A stretch of DNA of 23,372 bases from a virus: the IMG/VR virus record IMGVR_UViG_3300031951_001230, positions 1-23,372 of that record. One strand, 5' to 3'. Each line of letters opens with the position of its first letter. Within the stretch, counting starts at the first letter, position 1. Position numbers and translations under genes: made by a program. Shown one piece after another: positions 3,054 through 12,654 of this stretch. Under the pieces are notes generated by a model. That model saw only the letters and a list, made by a program, of their open reading frames with translations. It did no database searches and was not told the origin of the DNA.

Positions 3054-3090
3054 AAAAAAACCCCTAATGTTATTTAGAGGTTTTATTATT
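3054..3090 (-). terminator. Intrinsic terminator after the 105-aa repeat-module gene
   Basis: An 11-bp stem (plus-strand aaaacccctaa paired with tttagaggtttt) with a 6-base loop. On the minus-strand transcript it is followed by a run of seven U (plus-strand a's at 3054-3060). The only C-A mismatch on the plus strand becomes a G-U wobble in minus-strand RNA, so the orientation is clear. A nearly identical copy lies at 3503-3534. Confidence 0.8.
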
Positions 3091-3104
3091 TTTGTGTGGT
3101 GGGG

Positions 3105-3422
3105 TTATTTATTAAATATTTTTTTAACTTCATCCCAAGTTTTATTCTCTAAATTTACGGCATTTATTTTAGCAATTTCATCATCTTTAATACCTATAAT
3201 ATTTTTTAACATTGTGATTCTAACCCACAATGCACCATTTTCCCATTTATCATCATCGTCTTTAAAAGAATGGATTGAATTCATTCTTGGGTCGTGGAAC
3301 ATACCAATCTCATCTTCCTTAATAACCCCTTCAGTAATCTTTTGTTTTCTGGTAGTTTCTGTAATAATCTTATCGATTAAATTAACCAATTCACTTTCTT
3401 TAATTCTTACAACTTTTTTCAT
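3105..3422 (-). CDS. Hypothetical protein with repeated N-terminal module (copy 1)
   Basis: A 105-residue protein. The start is ATG 3420-3422 (MKKVVRIKESELVN...), although the frame is open further upstream: that upstream DNA is a conserved non-coding leader shared by three genes. Residues 1-33 are identical to those of the next gene (3601-4146) and nearly identical to the gene at 4246-5229. The rest (from about residue 34) is unrelated to either, charged, with a FHDPRMNSIHSFKDDDDKW stretch. No known domain is recognised. The module ends in IITE-T, an (I/L)-x-E pattern like that cut by T4-type prohead protease, so a head-targeting or propeptide role is a hypothesis. Flanked by its own leader and terminator, it is an independent transcription unit. 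Confidence 0.65.
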   Translation of the reverse strand: MKKVVRIKESELVNLIDKIITETTRKQKITEGVIKEDEIGMFHDPRMNSIHSFKDDDDKWENGALWVRITMLKNIIGIKDDEIAKINAVNLENKTWDEVKKIFNK

Positions 3423-3476
3423 ATCTTTTTTATGTTTTATAATAAATACATTAAGAAAAAAAAAAACCACAAATTT
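3328..3476 (-). repeat. 149-bp leader/N-terminal module repeat, copy 1
   Basis: It covers the untranslated leader plus the first about 33 codons of the 105-aa gene. It differs from copy 2 (4052-4200) at one visible position (aaatacatt versus aaatatatt). Its distal end retains only the left half (ccacaaattt) of the hairpin that is complete in copies 2 and 3. Confidence 0.92.
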
Positions 3477-3502
3477 AATTATTTTTTTATTTACTAATAA
3501 AT

Positions 3503-3534
3503 AAAAAAACCCCTAATGTTATTTAGAGGTTTTA
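3503..3534 (-). terminator. Intrinsic terminator after the 181-aa repeat-module gene
   Basis: The same stem-loop as at 3054-3090 (aaaacccctaa / tttagaggtttt), with the U-tract on minus-strand RNA supplied by plus-strand a's at 3503-3509. It lies between the stop at 3601 and the next leader. The near-identity of the two terminators shows that the duplicated unit included the gene end as well as the start. Confidence 0.78.
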
Positions 3535-3600
3535 TTCTTTTTTTGTGGTAGGTTATTTAAAATAATTTTTTATTCTTAAATTTTCACTAACTTTTTGTTG

Positions 3601-4146
3601 TTAAGCTTGTGGTTTCGGTGCATTGGGTCTTTGATTTGGATTTACCTCTCCACCCTTTCTTGTTGTTTTAGGACCTAGGGTAAGTCTGGCATAAGAATCT
3701 TTTTCTTCACCACCCCATCCGCTTCCAATCTCTATATATTCACCACTTAATCCTTTTTTTAGTTCTAGGTCTGGAAATTGCTTAGCAACTAAATTACCGT
3801 ATTTTTGAGCATTAGCTTTATTAACACCCCTAATATCAACATGTAATACATCACCATAAGCACTAATAAAAACGTTTTGATTTTTAACATCTGGACTTGT
3901 TACTTTTTTACCACCAAAATCTAGAAGTGGTGTCGCTCCTTCTTTTTTAAATAAAGAATATAATTGTTTACCGTAATTTTTTAATACTAAAGCATCTTCT
4001 TTCAAAACCATTTCTTCATTAATAATCTGTTTTCCAGCTAAGTTTCTAACACCTTCAGTAATCTTTTGTTTTCTGGTAGTTTCTGTAATAATCTTATCGA
4101 TTAAATTAACCAATTCACTTTCTTTAATTCTTACAACTTTTTTCAT
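3601..4146 (-). CDS. Hypothetical protein with repeated N-terminal module (copy 2)
   Basis: A 181-residue protein; start ATG 4144-4146, chosen because the shared module begins there and the upstream frame is a conserved leader with a terminator-type hairpin. Residues 1-33 match copy 1 exactly. A second short element, RNLAGKQIINEEM, gives another I-x-E site (IINE-E). The remainder (about residues 50-181) has a mixed alpha/beta look, with QNVFISAYGDVLHVDIRGV, a Gly-rich GSGWGGEEKDSYARLTLG segment and a Pro/Asn-rich C-terminus. Function not recognised. It is probably an accessory virion or early-injected protein if the module is a targeting peptide; this is inference. Confidence 0.65.
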   Translation of the reverse strand: MKKVVRIKESELVNLIDKIITETTRKQKITEGVRNLAGKQIINEEMVLKEDALVLKNYGKQLYSLFKKEGATPLLDFGGKKVTSPDVKNQNVFISAYGDVLHVDIRGVNKANAQKYGNLVAKQFPDLELKKGLSGEYIEIGSGWGGEEKDSYARLTLGPKTTRKGGEVNPNQRPNAPKPQA

Positions 4147-4200
4147 ATCTTTTTTATGTTTTATAATAAATATATTAAGAAAAAAAAAAACCACAAATTT
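4052..4200 (-). repeat. 149-bp leader/N-terminal module repeat, copy 2
   Basis: 148 of 149 positions match copy 1 by eye. At its upstream end it merges into the complete bidirectional hairpin at 4182-4212. Confidence 0.92.
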
Positions 4201-4212
4201 TGTGGTTTTTTT
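4182..4212 (-). terminator. Intrinsic terminator between repeat-module genes
   Basis: Stem ccacaa/ttgtgg flanked by an A-run (4180-4190) and a T-run (4206-4212), so the structure could terminate in either direction. It lies downstream of the stop at 4246 and upstream of the 4146 start, and probably ends the transcript of the 327-aa gene. Confidence 0.75.
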
Positions 4213-4245
4213 CATTTGTGTAATACCATTATATTCTCAATAATT

Positions 4246-5229
4246 TTACAAAATATCAGTTGATATAGAATCTTTATCAACTTCTAATTTATCGCCATTA
4301 GATTTTTTAAGTTTAAAAGTAACTTCTTTAGTGGGTTCATCACCACTTTGAGATGTAACAATAATTGTATATTCTACACCGACTTGAAAATCTCGTTCAT
4401 CCATCGACCCTTGACCATAAGATTCTAAAGCATAAGCAAAATCTTCAGAATTTACTTCACCTAAATTATCTGGAATAATAACAGATTGAGTTCCATCTTG
4501 TCCTCTATGATAATATTCTTCTTCATTAATCATTTGTCTAATAGTTTTATTTGATTCTGTAATAATTTTATCGATTAAATTAACCAAATCACTTTCTTTA
4601 ATTCTTACAACTTTTTTATTTTCATTTATTTCTTTAGAATCAGGTATAATAACAGCATATCTTCCACCCCATTCTGATGTTCTTGGTATATTTGGGTCTC
4701 CTGGGAAAGCGGATAATACAATATATTCATTAGGTATTGCAGTGCCTTTTTCATCTTTTTTTGGTCTAACGATTATTGTTAATTCATCTGTTCTAAATTG
4801 GTTTATTGGTGCTGTTGTTTTAATTGCTGGTACTTTTATTTTATTAGGACCTTCAATTTTCTCAACTTCAGTTTCTTGAGCATTAGGTAATTTTTTAGCA
4901 TCTTCTATTGGTAGTACCAAATTGTAACCAATATTTGGTACTTTAATATTTACTGTTCCAGTTGTATTAGCAATTTTATCAATATCATTTCTTTTATTTA
5001 ATGTGTCTTGAACTATATTTAAAACATCATCAATAGATTTAGCAAAAATAGAACCTTGACCAACTTTACCATGTACATCCTCTAATTTATCTTTTAATGA
5101 CCAACCGCTAACATCTTTTGTTGGTATTGTAACGCCTTCAGTAATTTTTCTTTTTCTAGTAGTTTCTGTGATAATTTTATCGATTAAATTAACCAATTCA
5201 CTTTCTTTAATTCTTACAACTTTTTTCAT
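4246..5229 (-). CDS. Two-module hypothetical protein (apparent in-frame fusion of repeat-module genes)
   Basis: A 327-residue protein with start ATG 5227-5229; the open frame extends 38 codons upstream through the terminator and leader, which are unlikely to be translated. Residues 1-33 are the shared module (with KRKITEGV in place of KQKITEGV). Residues about 205-226 contain a second copy (KKVVRIKESDLVNLIDKIIT) in which the initiating ATG is replaced by an Asn codon, followed by IRQMINEEEYYHRGQ. Between them lies a domain with NEYIVLSAFPGDPNIPRTSE, WGGRYAVIIPD; after the second copy comes a probable beta domain (VGVEYTIIVTSQ ... KEVTFKLKK). It looks like two former genes joined by loss of the stop, terminator and start. 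If IITE sites are cut in the prohead, the product would be a two-part polyprotein. No family recognised. Confidence 0.65.
   Translation of the reverse strand: MKKVVRIKESELVNLIDKIITETTRKRKITEGVTIPTKDVSGWSLKDKLEDVHGKVGQGSIFAKSIDDVLNIVQDTLNKRNDIDKIANTTGTVNIKVPNIGYNLVLPIEDAKKLPNAQETEVEKIEGPNKIKVPAIKTTAPINQFRTDELTIIVRPKKDEKGTAIPNEYIVLSAFPGDPNIPRTSEWGGRYAVIIPDSKEINENKKVVRIKESDLVNLIDKIITESNKTIRQMINEEEYYHRGQDGTQSVIIPDNLGEVNSEDFAYALESYGQGSMDERDFQVGVEYTIIVTSQSGDEPTKEVTFKLKKSNGDKLEVDKDSISTDIL
4555..4617 (-). repeat. Internal, coding-only copy of the module repeat
   Basis: Closely matches the coding part of copies 1-3 (ttctgtaataattttatcg... through ...cttacaactttttt) but lacks the leader and the start codon. 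It encodes residues about 205-226 of the 327-aa protein. Confidence 0.85.
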
Positions 5230-5281
5230 ATCTTTTTTATGTTTTATAATAAATACATTAAGAAAAAAAAAAACCACAAAT
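5135..5281 (-). repeat. Leader/N-terminal module repeat, copy 3
   Basis: Very similar to copies 1 and 2, with a handful of substitutions confined mostly to the downstream 40 bases; the leader and the A-run of eleven are unchanged. Confidence 0.9.
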
Positions 5282-5296
5282 ATTTGTGGTTTTTTG
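5263..5296 (-). terminator. Intrinsic terminator after nrdA C-half
   Basis: Stem ccacaa/ttgtgg with an A-tract on one side and a T-tract on the other, placed 22 bases beyond the NrdA-C stop (5318-5320). It should end the nrdA transcript while its distal half is part of the leader of the next gene. Confidence 0.78.
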
Positions 5297-5317: not shown

Positions 5318-6412
5318 TTAACTTGAACAACCAAAACATTCAAATTGACTGTCGGTTGGTTTTTTGGTAACGGTTATTTGTGTTGAAGCTAATTTTGTAT
5401 TAGTGTCAAGCTTTGATTTTGTTCTAGTATAATAAACACCAGTTTTTAATCCACCTTTCCAAGCATACATTAATGCACTGGCAATTTTACCATATTTAGC
5501 ATCAGAATGATAAACATTTAATGACTGTGATTGGTCAACATATTTGTTTCTAATTATAGCTAAATCTAATAAAACTCTTTGTGGTATTTCCCATACATCT
5601 TTATACCTATACCTAACCTCTTCAGGTATTTCAGTAATGTTCTGTATACTTCCCTTATTCTTAATAACCTTATCAATCATTTCAACATCCCAAAGATTAT
5701 TTTCAAGCAATTCATTAACAAGATATTTGTTGATAACCAAAAACTCACCTTGACCAACACGCCTTGTAAATAAATTTGATGTTACAGGTTCAAATGATTC
5801 AAAAACACCTAATAAAATCGCACTGGTAGCTGTAGGCATTAATCCTAATAACAAACTGTTATACAATGGTATTGGTTCTCCATTTGGTTTTGGTGACCAT
5901 CCTTCAATATATGTTTCACCCTTTGAATATAAACTACCTTCCCAAGCTGGATAATTAACACCAAGTTCTTCAGCAATTGTCATTGATTCAATAATTGCTG
6001 ATTTATACATTGTTTCAAATATCTTATGTGTCCATTCTTTAGCTTCTTCACTTTCAAAAGATATTTTTTTCTTTGCAAAGAAATCAGCTAAACCAGCTAC
6101 ACCAATTGCTAATGCTCTTTGTTCTAAACCAGCAGATTCGCTCCATTCATCACTCCATTTATTTTTATTTATAACCTCATTTAATCCTCTAACCAATATC
6201 TTTGTTGATGTTTCTATTGTATCAATATCATCATGTTCAGATAAATTAATTGATGCTAATGTGCATTGAGATGTTTTTCTTGGTGAGCTGGCCTGGAAAA
6301 TTTCTGCACAGTTGTGGATAAGTATTCCATTTGCAAAAAAATTATTATTACCATCTATCGTTAAATCATATACTGGTAATGTTGTCTCGATTTTTCTTAT
6401 TTTAATCCCCAT
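5318..6412 (-). CDS. nrdA: Ribonucleotide reductase large subunit, C-terminal half preceded by split-intein C fragment
   Basis: A 364-residue product. Residues 1-34 are an intein C fragment (VYDLTIDGNNNFFANGILIHN, blocks F and G, with penultimate His and terminal Asn). Cys35 is the +1 nucleophile and starts the NrdA C-extein CAEIFQASSPRKTSQCTLAS. By alignment to E. coli NrdA, Cys35 corresponds to the thiyl-radical Cys439, the E of CAE to Glu441, and Cys50 to redox Cys462. Further on are the radical-transfer Tyr pair (VYY, about 327-328) and the C-terminal reducing Cys pair (ECFGCSS). Trans-splicing with the product of 7511-8992 would give an intact enzyme of about 717 residues that makes dNDPs with NrdB (12721-13674). 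The start ATG 6410-6412 is one base after the endonuclease stop, which suggests translational coupling. Confidence 0.93.
   Translation of the reverse strand: MGIKIRKIETTLPVYDLTIDGNNNFFANGILIHNCAEIFQASSPRKTSQCTLASINLSEHDDIDTIETSTKILVRGLNEVINKNKWSDEWSESAGLEQRALAIGVAGLADFFAKKKISFESEEAKEWTHKIFETMYKSAIIESMTIAEELGVNYPAWEGSLYSKGETYIEGWSPKPNGEPIPLYNSLLLGLMPTATSAILLGVFESFEPVTSNLFTRRVGQGEFLVINKYLVNELLENNLWDVEMIDKVIKNKGSIQNITEIPEEVRYRYKDVWEIPQRVLLDLAIIRNKYVDQSQSLNVYHSDAKYGKIASALMYAWKGGLKTGVYYTRTKSKLDTNTKLASTQITVTKKPTDSQFECFGCSS
6311..6412 (-). other. Split-intein C fragment (IntC, 34 residues)
   Basis: Encodes residues 1-34 of the C-half, ending GILIHN directly before the Cys codon at 6308-6310. The length and motifs resemble IntC pieces of natural split inteins such as DnaE (about 35 residues). 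The canonical Asn and the His before it are intact, so splicing competence is expected. Confidence 0.9.
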
Positions 6413-6413
6413 A

Positions 6414-7451
6414 TTATTTTATTATTTCATTTATGTTTGTTAATACTTTTTTTAGGTATACGTATCTTATTTTATTTTCATTACAATATTTTTTAGCGGC
6501 ATTAATTTTCATTTCTTCATTTAATTTTCCTTTTACACCCCTAATAAACCCTTTAATCTCTAATAATATTTTTTCACCATTATATTCGATTAAAAAATCT
6601 GGTAAGTATAACGTACCGTTTTCCTTTTCAATATAAAAAGGTTCATAACTATATATTATATTATTTAGTTCTAAAAATTCTATTGTTTTAAATTCCCAAG
6701 AACTTCTATACCTTATTATACTTTTATTTAAACAATTCTTTACTTTAATAAAACCAGTTTTAAAGAATTTTGTTGACCCCATATTTTCATTCCTATTCAT
6801 GCTAATAGTTGATATTATTGACATCATTTTTGTGTGTATAGTATTTATATTTTCATCACATATATTAATATCATTAATTTCATTCTTAAAGTTTAAAAAT
6901 ATCGTTTCATTTAAATATTTATTAGATTTTAAAAAATTTTTAACCTTTTTTATCTTATATTGTTTTGATTTTCTTAAATCTGAAATTGTTAATCCATATA
7001 ATTTATTTATTTCATCTTCCGTTTTTAATGTTGTATCTATGTTTTTATTATTTAAAAATTTTATTTTAAAATTAATACTAGAGTTTTGAATTTTTTTTGT
7101 TTCTCTAAACGAATCGCCTCTATTAATACCCTTCATTTTTATTTTCATCTTTTCAGAATGTTCTGGTCTTAATTTACCTTTACTATGATAACCCTTAAAA
7201 AAATTAACGCAGTCATCAGGCCATGCAAATCTACCGTTCTTCCATATTTTTAATATGTTGTTATTTGAGTAACAATTCTTAAAATTATCAAATGTTAATA
7301 CGTTATTTAAATATAAGTTTTTCAAAGCTTTGTGTTTTTGATATACATCTTTTATTATTTTATCAATATATTTAATTAATTCTGAATCAAATAACGTTAT
7401 AAAATCTTTGTTATTAATTAATTCATTTATTTTTGTGTGTTTTTTTATCAT
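6414..7451 (-). CDS. Free-standing homing-endonuclease-like protein (NUMOD3 plus PD-(D/E)XK/Vsr-like nuclease)
   Basis: A 345-residue protein encoded between the two nrdA halves. Residues 87-115 (GYHSKGKLRPEHSEKMKIKM, then KGINRG) match the NUMOD3 DNA-binding motif typical of phage homing endonucleases. The C-terminal domain has YRSSWEFKTIEFLE (Glu253), YLPDFLIEYNG (Asp285) and ILLEIKG (Glu298, Lys300), a PD-(D/E)XK arrangement; the 'RSSWE...PDF' signature also occurs in Vsr-like nucleases of T4-type phages. Homing endonucleases between split-intein gene halves are known ('fractured genes' described from phage metagenomes). The likely role is to cleave intein-less nrdA and so spread the cassette. 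The start ATG 7449-7451 immediately follows a 23-bp hairpin, and the protein is Lys/Asn/Ile-rich compared with NrdA. Which nuclease subfamily it belongs to is uncertain. Confidence 0.83.
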   Translation of the reverse strand: MIKKHTKINELINNKDFITLFDSELIKYIDKIIKDVYQKHKALKNLYLNNVLTFDNFKNCYSNNNILKIWKNGRFAWPDDCVNFFKGYHSKGKLRPEHSEKMKIKMKGINRGDSFRETKKIQNSSINFKIKFLNNKNIDTTLKTEDEINKLYGLTISDLRKSKQYKIKKVKNFLKSNKYLNETIFLNFKNEINDINICDENINTIHTKMMSIISTISMNRNENMGSTKFFKTGFIKVKNCLNKSIIRYRSSWEFKTIEFLELNNIIYSYEPFYIEKENGTLYLPDFLIEYNGEKILLEIKGFIRGVKGKLNEEMKINAAKKYCNENKIRYVYLKKVLTNINEIIK

Positions 7452-7503
7452 ATAAATTGGTCTTTTTAATAAATATTTTAATTTATTAAAAAGACCAATT
7501 TAT
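7452..7503 (-). promoter_or_regulatory. Perfect 23-bp RNA hairpin abutting the endonuclease start codon
   Basis: Arms 7452-7474 and 7481-7503 are perfectly complementary with a 6-base loop (7475-7480). The stem ends at the base directly before the ATG (7449-7451) and would occupy the whole ribosome-binding region. There is no U-tract on either side, so it is not an intrinsic terminator. The likely roles are translational repression of the endonuclease when transcribed from upstream, as described for T4 intron endonucleases, or an RNase III-type processing site between the nrdA halves. Confidence 0.8.
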
Positions 7504-7510
7504 GTTTAGG

Positions 7511-8992
7511 TTATTGTAATATTTTTAACATATCGTTTTCAATTAAGTCTTTAGCCATAACATACCCTCTATTAATTGTATATATTTTATGTTCTGGTGT
7601 GCATATTAGTTTTTTATTTGTTTTATCATCTATTATTTCTAAAACTTCTGCATCTTTACTAGTCATAGCTGATGCTAATAGCTGTTTGTATTCTATAATA
7701 TCGTTTTCAATATTATAAGATTTAACTAATATATTCTTATTGACTTTAAATAATTCATTTAATGTTTTGATATCAACCTTATGTTCTTCATTATCTAAAA
7801 TTATGTCTATTATTGAATCTTCAGATATGCATAGATTACTCATTTTAATTGGACCAATATTTGATTGCATATTTCTTTTGTTAGCGTTGTCTTTATACAT
7901 AACATAAGGTCTGCCACTCTCAACTTGAGATTTAATAATAGAGTCAAATATTTCTTTAGGATTTACTTTCTTACCTATACCTAGATTAACAGCTTTTTCA
8001 TACTCTTCATTAAATTCAGTACCATATAAATCATATAATGGTCTTAATCCAGCTTTTTTAATATCATTAGGACAAAATAAATACCAATCACCACCAGTTT
8101 CTAATCTCTCCATAAACAAATCATTTATTACAACAGCTGTAAATAAATCACGTGTTCTTAATTGTTCATCCCCAATTGGTAATGTTAATTCTAAGAAATC
8201 AATAATATCTTTATGCCAAACAGATAAATATAAAGCGCAACTACCAGAACGAGAACCTTGTTTATAAAATCTCATTTTTGATTGTACCATGTCAGCAAAT
8301 CTAACAATACCACCAGCATTACCTTGAAAAGATTCTACAACACTTTCTTTGCTTCTTAATGGGTCAACCAATAACCCAATACCAGAACCTTCTTTAGATG
8401 CTGCTGATATCATCGTTAATGTGTTTTCTATTTCTTGAAAGCTATCCCCTTCTAAATGTGTTAAGTTACAAGAAATCATACCACCTCGTTTATCAATACC
8501 AGCATTGGTATAAATTGGTGTGGCAAAATTAATTCTTTTTAAATTAAGCTCATTTATTAAATTATTTCTTAACTCTTCATTATCACCATGTAAATGATTT
8601 GCAACCCTTTCATACATACATGATGGTAATTCAATAGGGTTTTTATTAGAATCTCTTTTAGAATATTTAGTTAAAAAAGTTGTTGCAGCAAAAAAATCAT
8701 ATGTTAAATCAACTGGTTTTAATTCTTTACCAATTAATTTAGATTGTCTACTTAATAAAATCCTACCACCAAGTAATGAATAATCTGGGTGTTGTATTAT
8801 CTTGTCAGCCGCTTTAAACGCTATTATCTCGTCAATCTCAGTTGTTGTTATGTTATCCGTTATCAATGGTATAACCTCTTGAAATAATGAATCAGAATCA
8901 ATTTTTAATCCATTTGATTGACCTTTTATTCTACTTAGAATCTTATTTGGCATAAATGCCTGTGTCGTTTTATCTCTCTTTAATATTCTCAT
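7511..8992 (-). CDS. nrdA: Ribonucleotide reductase large subunit, N-terminal half followed by split-intein N fragment
   Basis: A 493-residue product. Residues about 1-85 form an ATP-cone-like start (MRILKRDKTTQAFMPNKILS), followed by the N-terminal part of the class I RNR barrel with GGMISCNLTH (Cys175, counterpart of redox Cys225), SKEGSGIGLLVDPLRS and QGSRSGSCALYLSVWH. The extein ends ...KMSNL at residue 387; Asn386 corresponds to catalytic Asn437. Residues 388-493 are an intein N fragment starting with Cys388 (CISEDSIIDI, block A) and containing block B (CTPEHKIYTINRGY, TxxH). It ends at a genuine TAA, so the active site is only completed by protein trans-splicing with the product of 5318-6412. 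The start ATG 8990-8992 lies just downstream of a TTTG-N20-TAAATTTG promoter candidate. Confidence 0.93.
   Translation of the reverse strand: MRILKRDKTTQAFMPNKILSRIKGQSNGLKIDSDSLFQEVIPLITDNITTTEIDEIIAFKAADKIIQHPDYSLLGGRILLSRQSKLIGKELKPVDLTYDFFAATTFLTKYSKRDSNKNPIELPSCMYERVANHLHGDNEELRNNLINELNLKRINFATPIYTNAGIDKRGGMISCNLTHLEGDSFQEIENTLTMISAASKEGSGIGLLVDPLRSKESVVESFQGNAGGIVRFADMVQSKMRFYKQGSRSGSCALYLSVWHKDIIDFLELTLPIGDEQLRTRDLFTAVVINDLFMERLETGGDWYLFCPNDIKKAGLRPLYDLYGTEFNEEYEKAVNLGIGKKVNPKEIFDSIIKSQVESGRPYVMYKDNANKRNMQSNIGPIKMSNLCISEDSIIDIILDNEEHKVDIKTLNELFKVNKNILVKSYNIENDIIEYKQLLASAMTSKDAEVLEIIDDKTNKKLICTPEHKIYTINRGYVMAKDLIENDMLKILQ
7514..7831 (-). other. Split-intein N fragment (IntN, 106 residues)
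   Basis: Begins at the Cys codon 7829-7831 and runs to the codon before the stop. It has Hint blocks A and B, and with IntC totals about 140 residues, the size of an endonuclease-less mini-intein split at the usual loop. No endonuclease domain is inside; that gene is separate. Confidence 0.9.
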
Positions 8993-9031: not shown

Positions 9032-9166
9032 GAAACAAATAACAAATAAAATATAAAAAAAAAATTATTATTTATAAAAAATCAATACTTTTTTTCTTTT
9101 AACATATTTATTATTAACAATAACAAAAATAAAAAAATAACAATTAACTAAAAAAAATAAATTACT

Positions 9167-9655
9167 ATGGCCGATTTACTCATGAAAATGCCACTACCTT
9201 ATGAACCTAAAAGAAAAAATAGGTGGCTTATTACTTTTCCAGCAGATTTAGGTATTCAACAATGGTGGTTGTCTTCAGCTTCAAGACCATCAATAACACA
9301 AAATGAAACTGAAATAGCATTTTTAAATACCTCAACTTGGGTTGTGGGTCGTTTTAATTGGGAAGCTATTGATGTTACTTTCCGTGACCCTATCGGACCT
9401 TCAGCTTCTCAAGCTATTATGGAATGGGTTCGTTTACACTCAGAATCAATTACTGGTAGACAAGGTTATGCAGTTGGTTATAAAAGACCTGTAGAATTGG
9501 AAATGCTTGACCCTACTGGTGTTGTGGTTGAAAAATGGTTACTTGATGGTACTATGTTAACTAACGTTAATTTTGGTGACCTTTCTTTTGAAGATGATGG
9601 TATTGCTGAAATTACAGCAACTTTAAGATTTGATAGAGCAATACTCCTTTTTTGA
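9167..9655 (+). CDS. 19: Tail tube protein, gp19-like
   Basis: A 162-residue protein, practically the length of T4 gp19 (163). Family pattern: a short N-terminal region with PYEPKRKNRWLITFPADLGI, then beta strands including FNWEAIDVTFRDPIGPSASQ, a helix AIMEWVRLHSESITGRQGYA, and the C-terminal beta-hairpin LSFEDDGIAEITATLRFDRA. gp19-type subunits stack as hexameric rings to form the DNA conduit inside the sheath. It is the only convincing plus-strand gene here, standing alone between nrdA and the accessory operon, with its own upstream AT-rich region (8993-9166) and a strong terminator at 9692. Start ATG 9167 follows an A-rich leader without an AGGAGG-type site. A CATATTTATTAT stretch at 9103-9115 resembles the leader element of the minus-strand structural genes. 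Confidence 0.87.
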   Translation: MADLLMKMPLPYEPKRKNRWLITFPADLGIQQWWLSSASRPSITQNETEIAFLNTSTWVVGRFNWEAIDVTFRDPIGPSASQAIMEWVRLHSESITGRQGYAVGYKRPVELEMLDPTGVVVEKWLLDGTMLTNVNFGDLSFEDDGIAEITATLRFDRAILLF

Positions 9656-9691
9656 TTTTTTGATTATCAACTACTTACGTATTTTTTTAAT

Positions 9692-9722
9692 AAAAACTCT
9701 TTCAAACGAAAGAGTTTTTTTA
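9692..9722 (+). terminator. Intrinsic terminator after the tail tube gene
   Basis: A 12-bp perfect stem (aaaaactctttc / gaaagagttttt) with an AAAC loop, followed by a T-run on the plus strand. It starts 37 bases beyond the gp19 stop. The A-run on the other side would also allow termination of minus-strand transcripts. Confidence 0.85.
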
Positions 9723-9741
9723 TTTTAATATAATTAAGTGT

Positions 9742-9825
9742 ATGTCAGAATCAGAAATTATGTTATCTAGAGGTATAAATAAGATATATGATTGTGGTAC
9801 TGTTAAATGGGTAATTAATTACTAA
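9742..9825 (+). CDS. Possible 27-aa ORF or gene remnant
   Basis: ATG 9742 to TAA 9823-9825 encodes MSESEIMLSRGINKIYDCGTVKWVINY (27 residues). It lies directly after the gp19 terminator and its stop overlaps the 3' end of the convergent gene at 9815. The IYDCGTVKW segment looks like real protein rather than random translation, so it may be the left-over of a longer gene. There is no ribosome site and no homologue I can name; it may equally be chance. Confidence 0.25.
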   Translation: MSESEIMLSRGINKIYDCGTVKWVINY

Positions 9826-10708
9826 ACGTGTCAAAAATTTTTCTATGGAACTCATCGTAGGTTAAATCTGGTGATATTGTTACAATAGGGTTAATTTTTA
9901 TTTCTAAATTTATTGGTAGTTCTTTATTTAATATTTTTGCTGCCATATATCTATGATGACCATCTTCTATATAAAACCCTGGTTTTTTATTTTTAATTTT
10001 TAAAAATGAGACATCAATTGGTTCTGATAAGTTTATTTTTTTAGCCCATTCTTTTGGTGATAAACCGCTTTTTTCTATTTCATATACAACATTTTCCAAA
10101 TCGGCTAACCATTTTAATTTTAATTCTTTTGGTTTTAAGGTTTTAATATCTTCTTCAGAAAAACCATGTGCTAATCTATCTAATAGTTCTATTGATAAAC
10201 CACCACTTCTAAGTAATTGTTCTGATGTTTCATATTTTGATAATTCTTTTTTTAAATCATTAATGTATAAATCATTTTTAAATTTAAAAACATCATTATA
10301 TAATGTGTTTTCAGTTATTAGTTCGTCAAAAATAACATCCCATTTGGTTAGAGGTATCCACCCATATTTTGTTTTTATTTCTAATTTATTTACTGGGATA
10401 TTTTCAAATGTTATATATTCATCACCTTTATTATTTTTTATTCTGTTAGACAATTCAAAATCATCAGTTAAAATTGTTCTTAATATTACCATTCTATCTT
10501 TACCACCTTTAGACATGGCATAATATTTTGCATAATCAATATCGTTTGTGAAGCTAATTGAAGGTTTTATTTCACCAACATTATTTGTTTTAATATAACC
10601 ATCTTTTTTTATATTGTTTGCAGCACCTTTACTAGTCCCATGATAAAGATAAATCTGTTCATTATTATTGGTAATTTCCCTTAATAGTTTTCTTATTAGT
10701 TGTTTCAT
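9815..10708 (-). CDS. PARP-like (H-Y-E) ADP-ribosyltransferase-fold protein with C-terminal ParB-like domain
   Basis: A 297-residue protein. Residues 1-12 (MKQLIRKLLREI) match the N-termini of two neighbouring genes. Residues about 19-115 show an ADP-ribosyltransferase pattern of the H-Y-E class: YLYHGTS (His23), SISFTNDIDYAKYYA (Tyr62/63) and GDEYITFENIP (Glu97). The C-terminal portion has FLKIKNKKPGFYIEDGHHRY (residues 235-254) followed by MAAKIL, the 'DGHHRy.Aa' signature of ParB/sulfiredoxin-like domains. ADP-ribosylation of a host target is the natural inference for the first domain, as with T4 Alt/ModA; the ParB-like part may bind or cut DNA or act as an NTPase. This is the last gene of a four-gene operon (12654 to 9815). 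No motif proves activity. Confidence 0.62.
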   Translation of the reverse strand: MKQLIRKLLREITNNNEQIYLYHGTSKGAANNIKKDGYIKTNNVGEIKPSISFTNDIDYAKYYAMSKGGKDRMVILRTILTDDFELSNRIKNNKGDEYITFENIPVNKLEIKTKYGWIPLTKWDVIFDELITENTLYNDVFKFKNDLYINDLKKELSKYETSEQLLRSGGLSIELLDRLAHGFSEEDIKTLKPKELKLKWLADLENVVYEIEKSGLSPKEWAKKINLSEPIDVSFLKIKNKKPGFYIEDGHHRYMAAKILNKELPINLEIKINPIVTISPDLTYDEFHRKIFDTFSN

Positions 10709-10723
10709 TTATCTTTTTTTTTA

Positions 10724-11233
10724 TTAAAATAAATCAATATAATATTTTTGGGTGAATTCTTCTATTTTAAATAGGGTTCTGTTCATATCATTTATTATTC
10801 TATCTAATTCGTTTTTTGGTATTTCTTCATTATTTTTTACCATTATTTCTTTATTATAAGATAGGGTTTCATTTAAACCTTTCATCGCAATAATAAAAAC
10901 TCTAAATGTTAAATCATCCATTTCTTTTGGTTGCATTGTATGAAATTGATTTTTTATAATAAATTTATGAAACGTATTATCATTTATTTTATGTGGGTAA
11001 TAAATGATTTCAGATGAGATGTTTAACTGTGGGAATTTTATTATTTCATCACCCATCATCATTGTTACGTTTTCATTATAAACTACTCTTTGTGCTTCTA
11101 ATCTTTTTTCGTCTCTAGGGTGTTTAAATATATTATATTCTTTAAGAAAAGGGATTCTTTTAATTAATATATCTTTAATATTATTGTTTGATTCTAAGTT
11201 TTCTCTTAGTAATTTTTTAATTAATTTTTTCAT
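10724..11233 (-). CDS. Hypothetical protein with MKKLIKKLLREN-type N-terminus
   Basis: A 169-residue protein. The start ATG 11231-11233 is preferred over an in-frame TTG at 11252-11254, because the N-terminus then aligns with MKNLIKKILREN of the upstream neighbour and MKQLIRKLLREI of the downstream one, and because the TTG would overlap the previous gene. The remainder is charged and mixed alpha/beta (RIPFLKEYNIFKHPRDEKRL ... FHKFIIKNQFHTMQPKEMDD), with a helical C-terminus. No family recognised. Five bases separate the upstream stop codon from this ATG, so the genes are probably translated together. Possibly a packaged accessory protein, by the shared N-terminus. Confidence 0.62.
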   Translation of the reverse strand: MKKLIKKLLRENLESNNNIKDILIKRIPFLKEYNIFKHPRDEKRLEAQRVVYNENVTMMMGDEIIKFPQLNISSEIIYYPHKINDNTFHKFIIKNQFHTMQPKEMDDLTFRVFIIAMKGLNETLSYNKEIMVKNNEEIPKNELDRIINDMNRTLFKIEEFTQKYYIDLF

Positions 11234-11237
11234 GTTA

Positions 11238-11813
11238 TTAATGGTCTCCGACAATAGCGTTAATTGGTTTTTTTAATTCTTCACCATTTATTTTAATTAT
11301 TTTCACATTAGTACCTTTATTTAGCGCACATTCCCATTGGTCTTCACCATACCAAATAAATGAATGAAACCCATAAATCCAATCTATATCTTTTGGGTTA
11401 ATAATAGCTTCTAATATATAAGGTTCACCCGTTTTCATCATTTTTATATTTGGGTGTCGCTCTCCGTATGCCCCAACGCCATTTTCATCAAATGACCAAT
11501 GCTTACCTATATCTTTTATATCTAAATCTTTTATAGAATTTAATTTAATTAATCTATAAATTGTTATTTTATTACTGTTTTTTAATTCATTATATTTATC
11601 AACATATAGTTCTATTCTTTCTATATAATTATCTCTAGAGTATTCTGCTTGTATATCATTTTTATCTTCTTCATACGCATCAAAAGATTCAGCAACGTCT
11701 TCTATATTTTCATAAGCGTATTTTGTCGCTGTTTCGTAGTTAGATAAAAATGAATCATATTCATTATATTCATTTAAATTTTCTCTTAATATTTTTTTAA
11801 TTAAATTTTTCAC
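11238..11813 (-). CDS. Putative ADP-ribosyltransferase-like protein (R-S-E pattern)
   Basis: A 191-residue protein starting at GTG 11811-11813, one base after the upstream TAA (11815-11817). Residues 1-12 are the shared basic helix MKNLIKKILREN. A helical acidic region (about 15-80) is followed by a C-terminal domain with ITIYRLIKL (Arg87), IGKHWSFDENG (Trp106-Ser107) and YGEDQWECAL (Gln159, Glu161), with YILEAIINPKDIDW between. This order, Arg on strand 1, a W-S/T-F motif, and Q/E-x-E near the end, matches R-S-E type ADP-ribosyltransferases. The assignment rests on motif order only. If right, the operon holds two different ADP-ribosyltransferase-fold proteins. Confidence 0.55.
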   Translation of the reverse strand: MKNLIKKILRENLNEYNEYDSFLSNYETATKYAYENIEDVAESFDAYEEDKNDIQAEYSRDNYIERIELYVDKYNELKNSNKITIYRLIKLNSIKDLDIKDIGKHWSFDENGVGAYGERHPNIKMMKTGEPYILEAIINPKDIDWIYGFHSFIWYGEDQWECALNKGTNVKIIKINGEELKKPINAIVGDH

Positions 11814-11814
11814 G

Positions 11815-12654
11815 TTACTTTTCTTTACTCATTTTATATAAATTAATTTTTTCTGATGTTCCAATAAGATTGCCGCTATCATCATAGTTAGAAATAGTTT
11901 GATAGGTATATTTAACATATTCTGAACCTTCTTTAATTAAATTTGTACAATATTTATATAATGTATTAGACTGTGTGTCATTAGTTTCTTTAATAATTTC
12001 TTCAGCTGCTCTTAACCCACCATTAGCTAAGTTTATACTAGCCTCACCAAATGTTTTAATGTCTTCTGGGTTAACAACACCATGTGACTCTCTTAATCTT
12101 ATTAAATATATTATTGCTTTAGTTACCATGTTAGTATCTCTTAAATGTTCTGACCCTCTTTCTTTCATATCCATTATAAAACCTATGGCAATATTTATAT
12201 GCATTTCACTTATTGGTTGATTAGTTGTACTAGCGTATGCTAATGAAGCTGAAATAATTAAAAAAACCATAACTAATATAGTTAAGTTAATAAGTTTAAA
12301 TACTACAGGGTATTTTTCTCTAAAAGATAGAACTGTTTTTGATACCCAATTAATAAAAGTTTTTAATTTTTCTAATATTTTTAATCCTATTTTAGATGCG
12401 TTTAACAAAAAAGTGTTTAACACTTCTATTATCTTTTGGTTTATTTTTTCAGATATATTTGAAAATATATTTTCATTAATTGTTAAATTTAATTCTTTAA
12501 TATATTCTTTTTCACTTATTTTATTTTCAATAAAATTTTTTGTTAATTTATGTTCTATTAAGAATTCTTTATTAAACTCAATTTTAGTGTGATTTTGTTG
12601 TTCTTCTAATAAGTTCTTAAACTTATTCATAAACATTCTCATTTCTTTGCTCAT
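11815..12654 (-). CDS. Hypothetical single-pass membrane protein
   Basis: A 279-residue protein, start ATG 12652-12654 (a later Met, giving MNKFKNLLEEQQ, is an alternative start that resembles the basic (L/I)-x-E N-termini of its neighbours). Residues about 40-115 are amphipathic, probably coiled-coil. Residues 118-141 (VFKLINLTILVMVFLIISAS and on) form one strong transmembrane helix. The C-terminal half is helical (NIAIGFIMDMKERGSEHLRD ... EASINLANGGLRAAEEIIKE). No known family is recognised. It is the first gene of the accessory operon, after the nrdB terminator and a TATTTATA leader element. Confidence 0.6.
   Translation of the reverse strand: MSKEMRMFMNKFKNLLEEQQNHTKIEFNKEFLIEHKLTKNFIENKISEKEYIKELNLTINENIFSNISEKINQKIIEVLNTFLLNASKIGLKILEKLKTFINWVSKTVLSFREKYPVVFKLINLTILVMVFLIISASLAYASTTNQPISEMHINIAIGFIMDMKERGSEHLRDTNMVTKAIIYLIRLRESHGVVNPEDIKTFGEASINLANGGLRAAEEIIKETNDTQSNTLYKYCTNLIKEGSEYVKYTYQTISNYDDSGNLIGTSEKINLYKMSKEK

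Follow-up and report, generated by a model that had tools for sequence, protein, structure and literature searches.

A repeated N-terminal tag on unrelated proteins of uncultured T4-like phages as a probable capsid-targeting propeptide

Three consecutive genes of an uncultured virus share a leader and their first 33 codons, behind which they encode unrelated proteins. We regard these 33 codons as quite probably encoding a cleavable N-terminal capsid-targeting propeptide, similar in action to that of the T4 internal proteins. Sequence comparisons show that the constant part of the module is an N-terminal tag with a wide distribution, occurring on many proteins that are otherwise unrelated; the family is large and apparently undescribed. 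The analysed stretch, referred to as the window, is a 23,372-base record of an uncultured virus. Judged from its gene content, comprising the baseplate proteins gp6 and gp25, the tail tube protein gp19, NrdA/NrdB, a helicase, a UvsX-type recombinase, and an ssDNA-binding protein, several of which were named from sequence reading, the virus is a T4-like contractile-tailed phage. The window can be extended to approximately 69 kb with G032, another contig of this virus that shows 99.994% identity over 16.3 kb.

The array consists of three minus-strand genes with a common 5' module (Table 1). The common block reaches from about position -52 through codon 33 and encodes MKKVVRIKESELVNLIDKIITETTRK[QR]KITEGV, after which each gene continues into its own C-terminal part (payload). 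The gene 3 payload comprises 294 residues when the internal tag, which separates payloads 3a and 3b, is included. The first-pass annotation had counted three copies of the module and overlooked this fourth tag copy within the frame of gene 3.

Table 1. Coordinates of the tagged genes, module copies, and putative signals in the window.
Feature	Position	Strand	Basis or remark
Gene 1, 105 residues: tag and 72-residue payload	3105..3422	-	ORF and tag match
Gene 2, 181 residues: tag and 148-residue payload with a weak tail-terminator-like fold	3601..4146	-	ORF, tag match, and structure model
Gene 3, 327 residues: tag, payload 3a, internal tag, payload 3b	4246..5229	-	ORF and tag match
Module copy 1, leader (about -52 to -1) and codons 1-33	3324..3474	-	
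Module copy 2, leader and codons 1-33	4048..4198	-	Differs from copy 1 at 1 coding and 1 leader base
Module copy 3, leader and codons 1-33	5131..5281	-	Differs from copy 1 at 7/99 coding bases; same leader from -52 onward
Internal tag copy NKKVVRIKESDLVNLIDKIITES inside gene 3	4543..4620	-	In frame; without leader and start codon
Candidate cleavage sites in module copy 1			IITE, residues 19-22; KITE, residues 28-31
Promoter-like TATTTATTATAAAA, leader of copy 1	3435..3448	-	Sequence; also at 4159-4172 and 5242-5255
Terminator-like hairpin after gene 1	3057..3084	-	
Terminator-like hairpin after gene 2	3506..3533	-	Identical to that of gene 1
Hairpin after gene 3	4183..4213	-	At the 5' edge of module copy 2
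Hairpin ahead of module copy 3	5268-5295	-	Similar to that at 4183-4213
Gene with shorter tag MKQLIRKLLRE	9815..10708	-	Payload weakly like RNA 2'-phosphotransferase and ParB
Gene with shorter tag MKKLIKKLLRE	10724..11230	-	
Gene with shorter tag MKNLIKKILRE	11238..11813	-	

We searched for the tag core with a degenerate DNA pattern, K[VIM][VIM]R[ILMF]xES[DE]L..., which required neither the start codon nor the later residues. The pattern matched at least 120 viral stretches in IMG/VR and had zero matches in 84,980 bacterial and archaeal genomes (257 Gb). Among the matches listed, all 94 translated ones, found in 80 loci, start 2-3 codons after an ATG, with the consensus MKK[IV][IV]RLTESDL[TVIA][RKN][IL]VKRVIxE. 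All 94 listed matches also possess Glu at tag residue 22 and Ile, Leu, or Val at residue 20, even though the pattern ended earlier. The information per column amounts to 3.7 bits at the Glu, drops to 1.4 at the next position, and reaches the background within two to three residues; the residue following the Glu varies. One tagged protein of G025 lacks Glu at residue 22, which counts against the propeptide reading. BLAST clustering of the 93 payloads of the matches listed gives 71 clusters, of which 55 are singletons. With the window's own module as the query, 20 of the 21 tagged records gave matches, up to 15 in a single record. A tblastn search of isolate phages with the 33- and 23-residue tags found no match, for which the low-complexity filter or the short query may account, and a literature search for RLTESDL retrieved no paper describing the tag. 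RIKES, the nearest sub-motif, was confined to L006, a contig of the same virus. A 71-residue protein of G008 (267799-268011) begins with a related tag, KVVRVKESDMVKMLEGIVAEA, and this genome also has gp20, gp21, and gp23.

In T4, targeting propeptides are removed by the prohead protease gp21, whose cuts fall after L/I-x-E, and the internal proteins reach the head by means of an N-terminal capsid-targeting sequence (CTS) that is later removed (PMC9026906; for the internal proteins also PMC3012670). By analogy, each gene considered here would combine its own promoter-like leader and the tag with an unrelated payload. Within a T4-type head, the tag would dock the protein in the prohead core, where the S77 (gp21-type) prohead protease would cut after I/L-x-E, presumably at IITE and/or KITE in the module of the window, and the mature payload would remain in the head, probably to be injected together with the DNA. 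Because targeting would depend on the tag alone, new payloads could be placed behind it, which duplication or recombination of the 5' module would bring about. We infer packaging, cleavage, and injection of the tagged proteins, as well as the functions of the payloads, from sequence features.

The I/L/V-x-E end of the tag resembles the T4 prohead-protease motif, a likeness that concerns the presence of the motif and not cleavage. Of the 18 tagged contigs measuring 100 kb or more, 15 contain the S77 protease family, tagged contigs alone being counted, and the tagged contigs inspected display the T4-like gene order gp20-gp21-gp22-gp23. The propeptide of the major capsid protein gp23 in tagged contigs ends in [HFY]LINE, followed by A or S. 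The strongest indication comes from orthologues in the head locus (the YMFFSN, GSRGSY, and PERM families), which carry different tags, with [VIL]xE at the same boundary before a conserved body, for example, MKKVIRLTESDLTRLVKRVLSE before SHEEGSDRYMFFSN, MKNLDNLIKQVLKE before QNERYMFFSN, and MNREIKITESQLTSLIRKVVNE before SHKESSRYMFFSN. In a gene beside gp23, tag and body meet as VLNE before VTSTSTGSRGSY and as ILRE before ATSDSSGSRGSF. Hence, a single tag can precede many payloads, and a single payload can follow several tags. There is no S77 protease in the window, which is a partial record with its own head genes outside it. Neither S77 nor gp23 was found in G004 and G007, the closest relatives of the window among the genomes compared, which are perhaps incomplete; the T4-type head set is present in the relative G008 and in the isolate immuto.

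We consider it unlikely that the tag is an uncleaved docking or targeting peptide for a site other than the head, such as the host RNA polymerase, the membrane, the replication compartment, the tail, or the baseplate, with the Glu marking a helix end. Such a peptide would fit the 3 of 91 tagged proteins (set A2, L066-L145) that look like endolysin or peptidoglycan-binding proteins, which would be atypical head cargo and count against delivery to the head, as well as some tagged proteins with a weak resemblance to tape-measure proteins. However, the tag end matches both the prohead-protease motif and the end of the capsid propeptide in the same genomes, and the different tags on orthologues all end at the same E boundary.

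Nearly all tagged payloads lack a Pfam or PHROGs assignment. For the array, Pfam and PHROGs gave no family for gene 1 and no convincing match for any payload, and no relatives of the gene 2 or gene 3 payloads were found among viral contigs. The single-sequence model of the gene 2 payload (pLDDT 72) weakly suggests a tail-terminator-like fold, the corresponding rows having Z of 7-8, which is no higher than unmatched models usually give. For payload 3a, the single-sequence model (pLDDT 54.6) hints very weakly at an RNase-toxin fold through three toxin rows, CdiA-CT, HigB2, and RelE, which have Z of 2-3. If the gene 2 product were a neck protein, the tagged cargo would comprise structural parts as well as effectors. 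Should the tag prove to be a signal for head delivery, a simple sequence search would make many uncharacterised proteins candidates for injected proteins, a class to which inhibitors of host restriction enzymes belong in T-even phages.

A shorter tag, MK[KN]LI[KR]K[IL]LRE, behaves alike and follows the same logic as the long one: 65 of its 83 translated matches directly follow the start codon, and our own comparison of both tag types gives the common core Lxx[IL][VI]K[RK][VI][IL]xE. One of the three window proteins carrying it (9815-10708) starts with YHGTS like ADP-ribosyl/phosphotransferases (phrog_5470, E 0.016) and has a ParB-like end (phrog_1033, E 1.3e-4), a domain make-up that recalls T4 Alt, a packaged cargo protein. 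A PDB sequence search with this protein returned nothing. The shorter-tag genes lie beside the tail tube gene gp19, which is located on the plus strand between nrdA and nrdB (9167-12654). The genes nrdB and nrdA are adjacent in several relatives, gp19 is close to the sheath gene in G004 and G007, and no tail tube gene was found beside the sheath gene in G032.

The array separates the nrdA gene pieces from gp25. All six relatives listed have nrdA next to gp25, approximately 90-110 bp apart in five of them, and the array genes are absent there. With the site empty in the relatives, the array represents either an addition in the lineage of the window or a loss in the others. The neighbouring nrdA (5318-8992) is split into two ORFs, an N-terminal half with an intein-like tail and a C-terminal half starting with the intein-like VYDLTIDGNNNFFANGILIHNC, and a free-standing endonuclease-like ORF (6414-7451) resides between the halves, an arrangement resembling a fractured gene with split inteins. 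The order and copy number of the array rest on one assembly because L006, an independent contig of the same virus, ends inside the repeat of approximately 150 bp. It is nevertheless quite unlikely that misassembly at this repeat produced the order of the array or the fusion in gene 3, given that the tag was confirmed in many other contigs and that the internal copy of gene 3 has diverged flanks and an open frame.

The promoter-like TATTTATTATAAAA lies 13-26 bases ahead of the ATG in each leader. A ribosome site had been assigned to the leader in the first-pass annotation, but a Shine-Dalgarno sequence is absent; the leader is A-rich and contains the promoter-like box instead. Boxes related to TATTTATTATAAAA also precede gp6 and gp25; across the approximately 69 kb, such boxes stand upstream of 10 of 56 genes compared with 1.3 expected, for a pattern picked after inspection. 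Six terminator-like sites were found against 0.9 expected, and the terminator thought to be shared by two units is indeed an identical 28-nt hairpin at the ends of units 1 and 2. Another hairpin lies between units (4183-4213 and 5268-5295), so that terminator-like hairpins set the units apart. This second hairpin is whole upstream of copies 2 and 3, whereas copy 1 retains the right arm only, which looks like a relic of copying a segment that began inside the hairpin.

Within the window, the leader and the first codons are almost identical as DNA, as would be expected if the conserved stretch worked as nucleic acid, either as a translation-start enhancer or as a regulatory leader carried together with the promoter. 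This explanation is very improbable in view of the divergence across genomes, where synonymous codons agree at 61% while the residues stay conserved, and the leaders show 42% identity and no agreement; we set a purely nucleic-acid module aside on these grounds. The identity of the tag DNA is 83% within genomes vs. 75% between them, part of which shared codon usage may explain.

Base-by-base comparison and shuffled controls bear out the three units with a common leader and 33 codons followed by unrelated payloads. Copies 1 and 2 differ in one of 99 coding bases, a silent change, and at leader base -27, thus at two positions over the whole module rather than the single base noted initially. Similarity stops right after TEGV: the first 99 nt are 92-99% identical, whereas the following 162 nt are 33-37% identical, and alignments between the payloads of genes 1-3 do not exceed those of shuffled sequences (p 0.27-0.97). 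Ordinary diverged tandem paralogues, to which the tandem placement and the common N-terminus might point, are scarcely credible with payloads that cannot be aligned, and were set aside. The near-identical modules before unrelated payloads imply recent copying, and we infer recombination inside the shared DNA, by homologous recombination or gene conversion.

The array is covered by a single genome of its species; payload turnover can be followed in two other tag-bearing genomes, G025 and G014, with a median protein (orthologue) identity of 92.7%. They contain 12 and 11 tagged genes, respectively, approximately six of which are full-length orthologues, and several others have matches largely confined to the tag or of low identity. 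In one pair, both the tag and the C-terminal body (71-74% identical) are the same, with approximately 50 extra residues in between in G014, bounded by KRVVKE and KRKVNE and placed exactly behind the tag. The segment of approximately 50 residues ending in KVNE is present in G014 (reverse complement, 9152-9721) and L087 (10008-10499), absent from the G025 orthologue, and possibly constitutes a removable second segment. These data speak for exchange or insertion immediately after the tag in closely related genomes. The anticipated difference in payloads between close relatives thus applies to several tagged genes, which share little but the tag, and not to the half or so that are full-length orthologues. 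The cassette diversification proposed in the first-pass annotation survives in part, as modular exchange at the family level, while the supposed variable C-termini of one protein are better described as different cargoes behind one tag. We suggest, with slightly more doubt than conviction, that the promoter-plus-tag module serves as a plug-in for delivery, being copied and recombined before unrelated genes to load a dozen or more different injected proteins per virion in a large group of uncultured T4-like and jumbo phages, and that double-tagged genes such as gene 3 yield two cargoes upon cutting by the prohead protease. If so, the tag alone would flag many unknown injected counter-defence proteins.

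The closest functional parallel is found in the T4 internal proteins IPI, IPII, and IPIII, which also have a short common N-terminus ending in I/L-x-E before unrelated small bodies. T4 ipII and ipIII share the start MKTYQEFIAEA, in which MKTYQEFIAE precedes A, and then continue into different bodies. The set of T4 internal proteins is described as highly diverse, conservation being limited to the CTS (PMC3012670), and its members are injected inhibitors of GmrSD restriction enzymes (PMC12373910). However, MKTYQEFIAE cannot be aligned with the tag of the window. Since only MK and the hydrophobic-x-E end agree, the tag may be said to work like a CTS without being a member of that family. The tags described here are also different in having 22-33 residues (approximately 11 in the shorter type), in occurring on 11-15 genes in some genomes, and in belonging to a promoter-plus-tag DNA module that is tandemly repeated and accompanied by a double-tagged gene. 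A role of the tag in head delivery would mean that phages outside the laboratory models have taken the T4 principle of one tag for many cargoes much further. In phiKZ and SPN3US, many head proteins are likewise cut by a gp21-like protease after x-x-E motifs, but the motif of phiKZ is S/A-x-E, and the available part of the source describes no large family with one recurrent N-terminal tag in these phages (PMC9026906). The nearest isolate by recombinase and gp6 is Flavobacterium phage immuto (NC_055915), with a recombinase only 35% identical, which encodes gp20, the gp21 protease, and gp23. Immuto (L062, L064) has repeated starts of its own, MENFDLKKFLVE followed by NKLT-type sequences in four proteins and MKKQILSE followed by QF in two; although unlike the tag of the window in sequence, they are candidate members of a further tag family, here in a phage that can be cultured.
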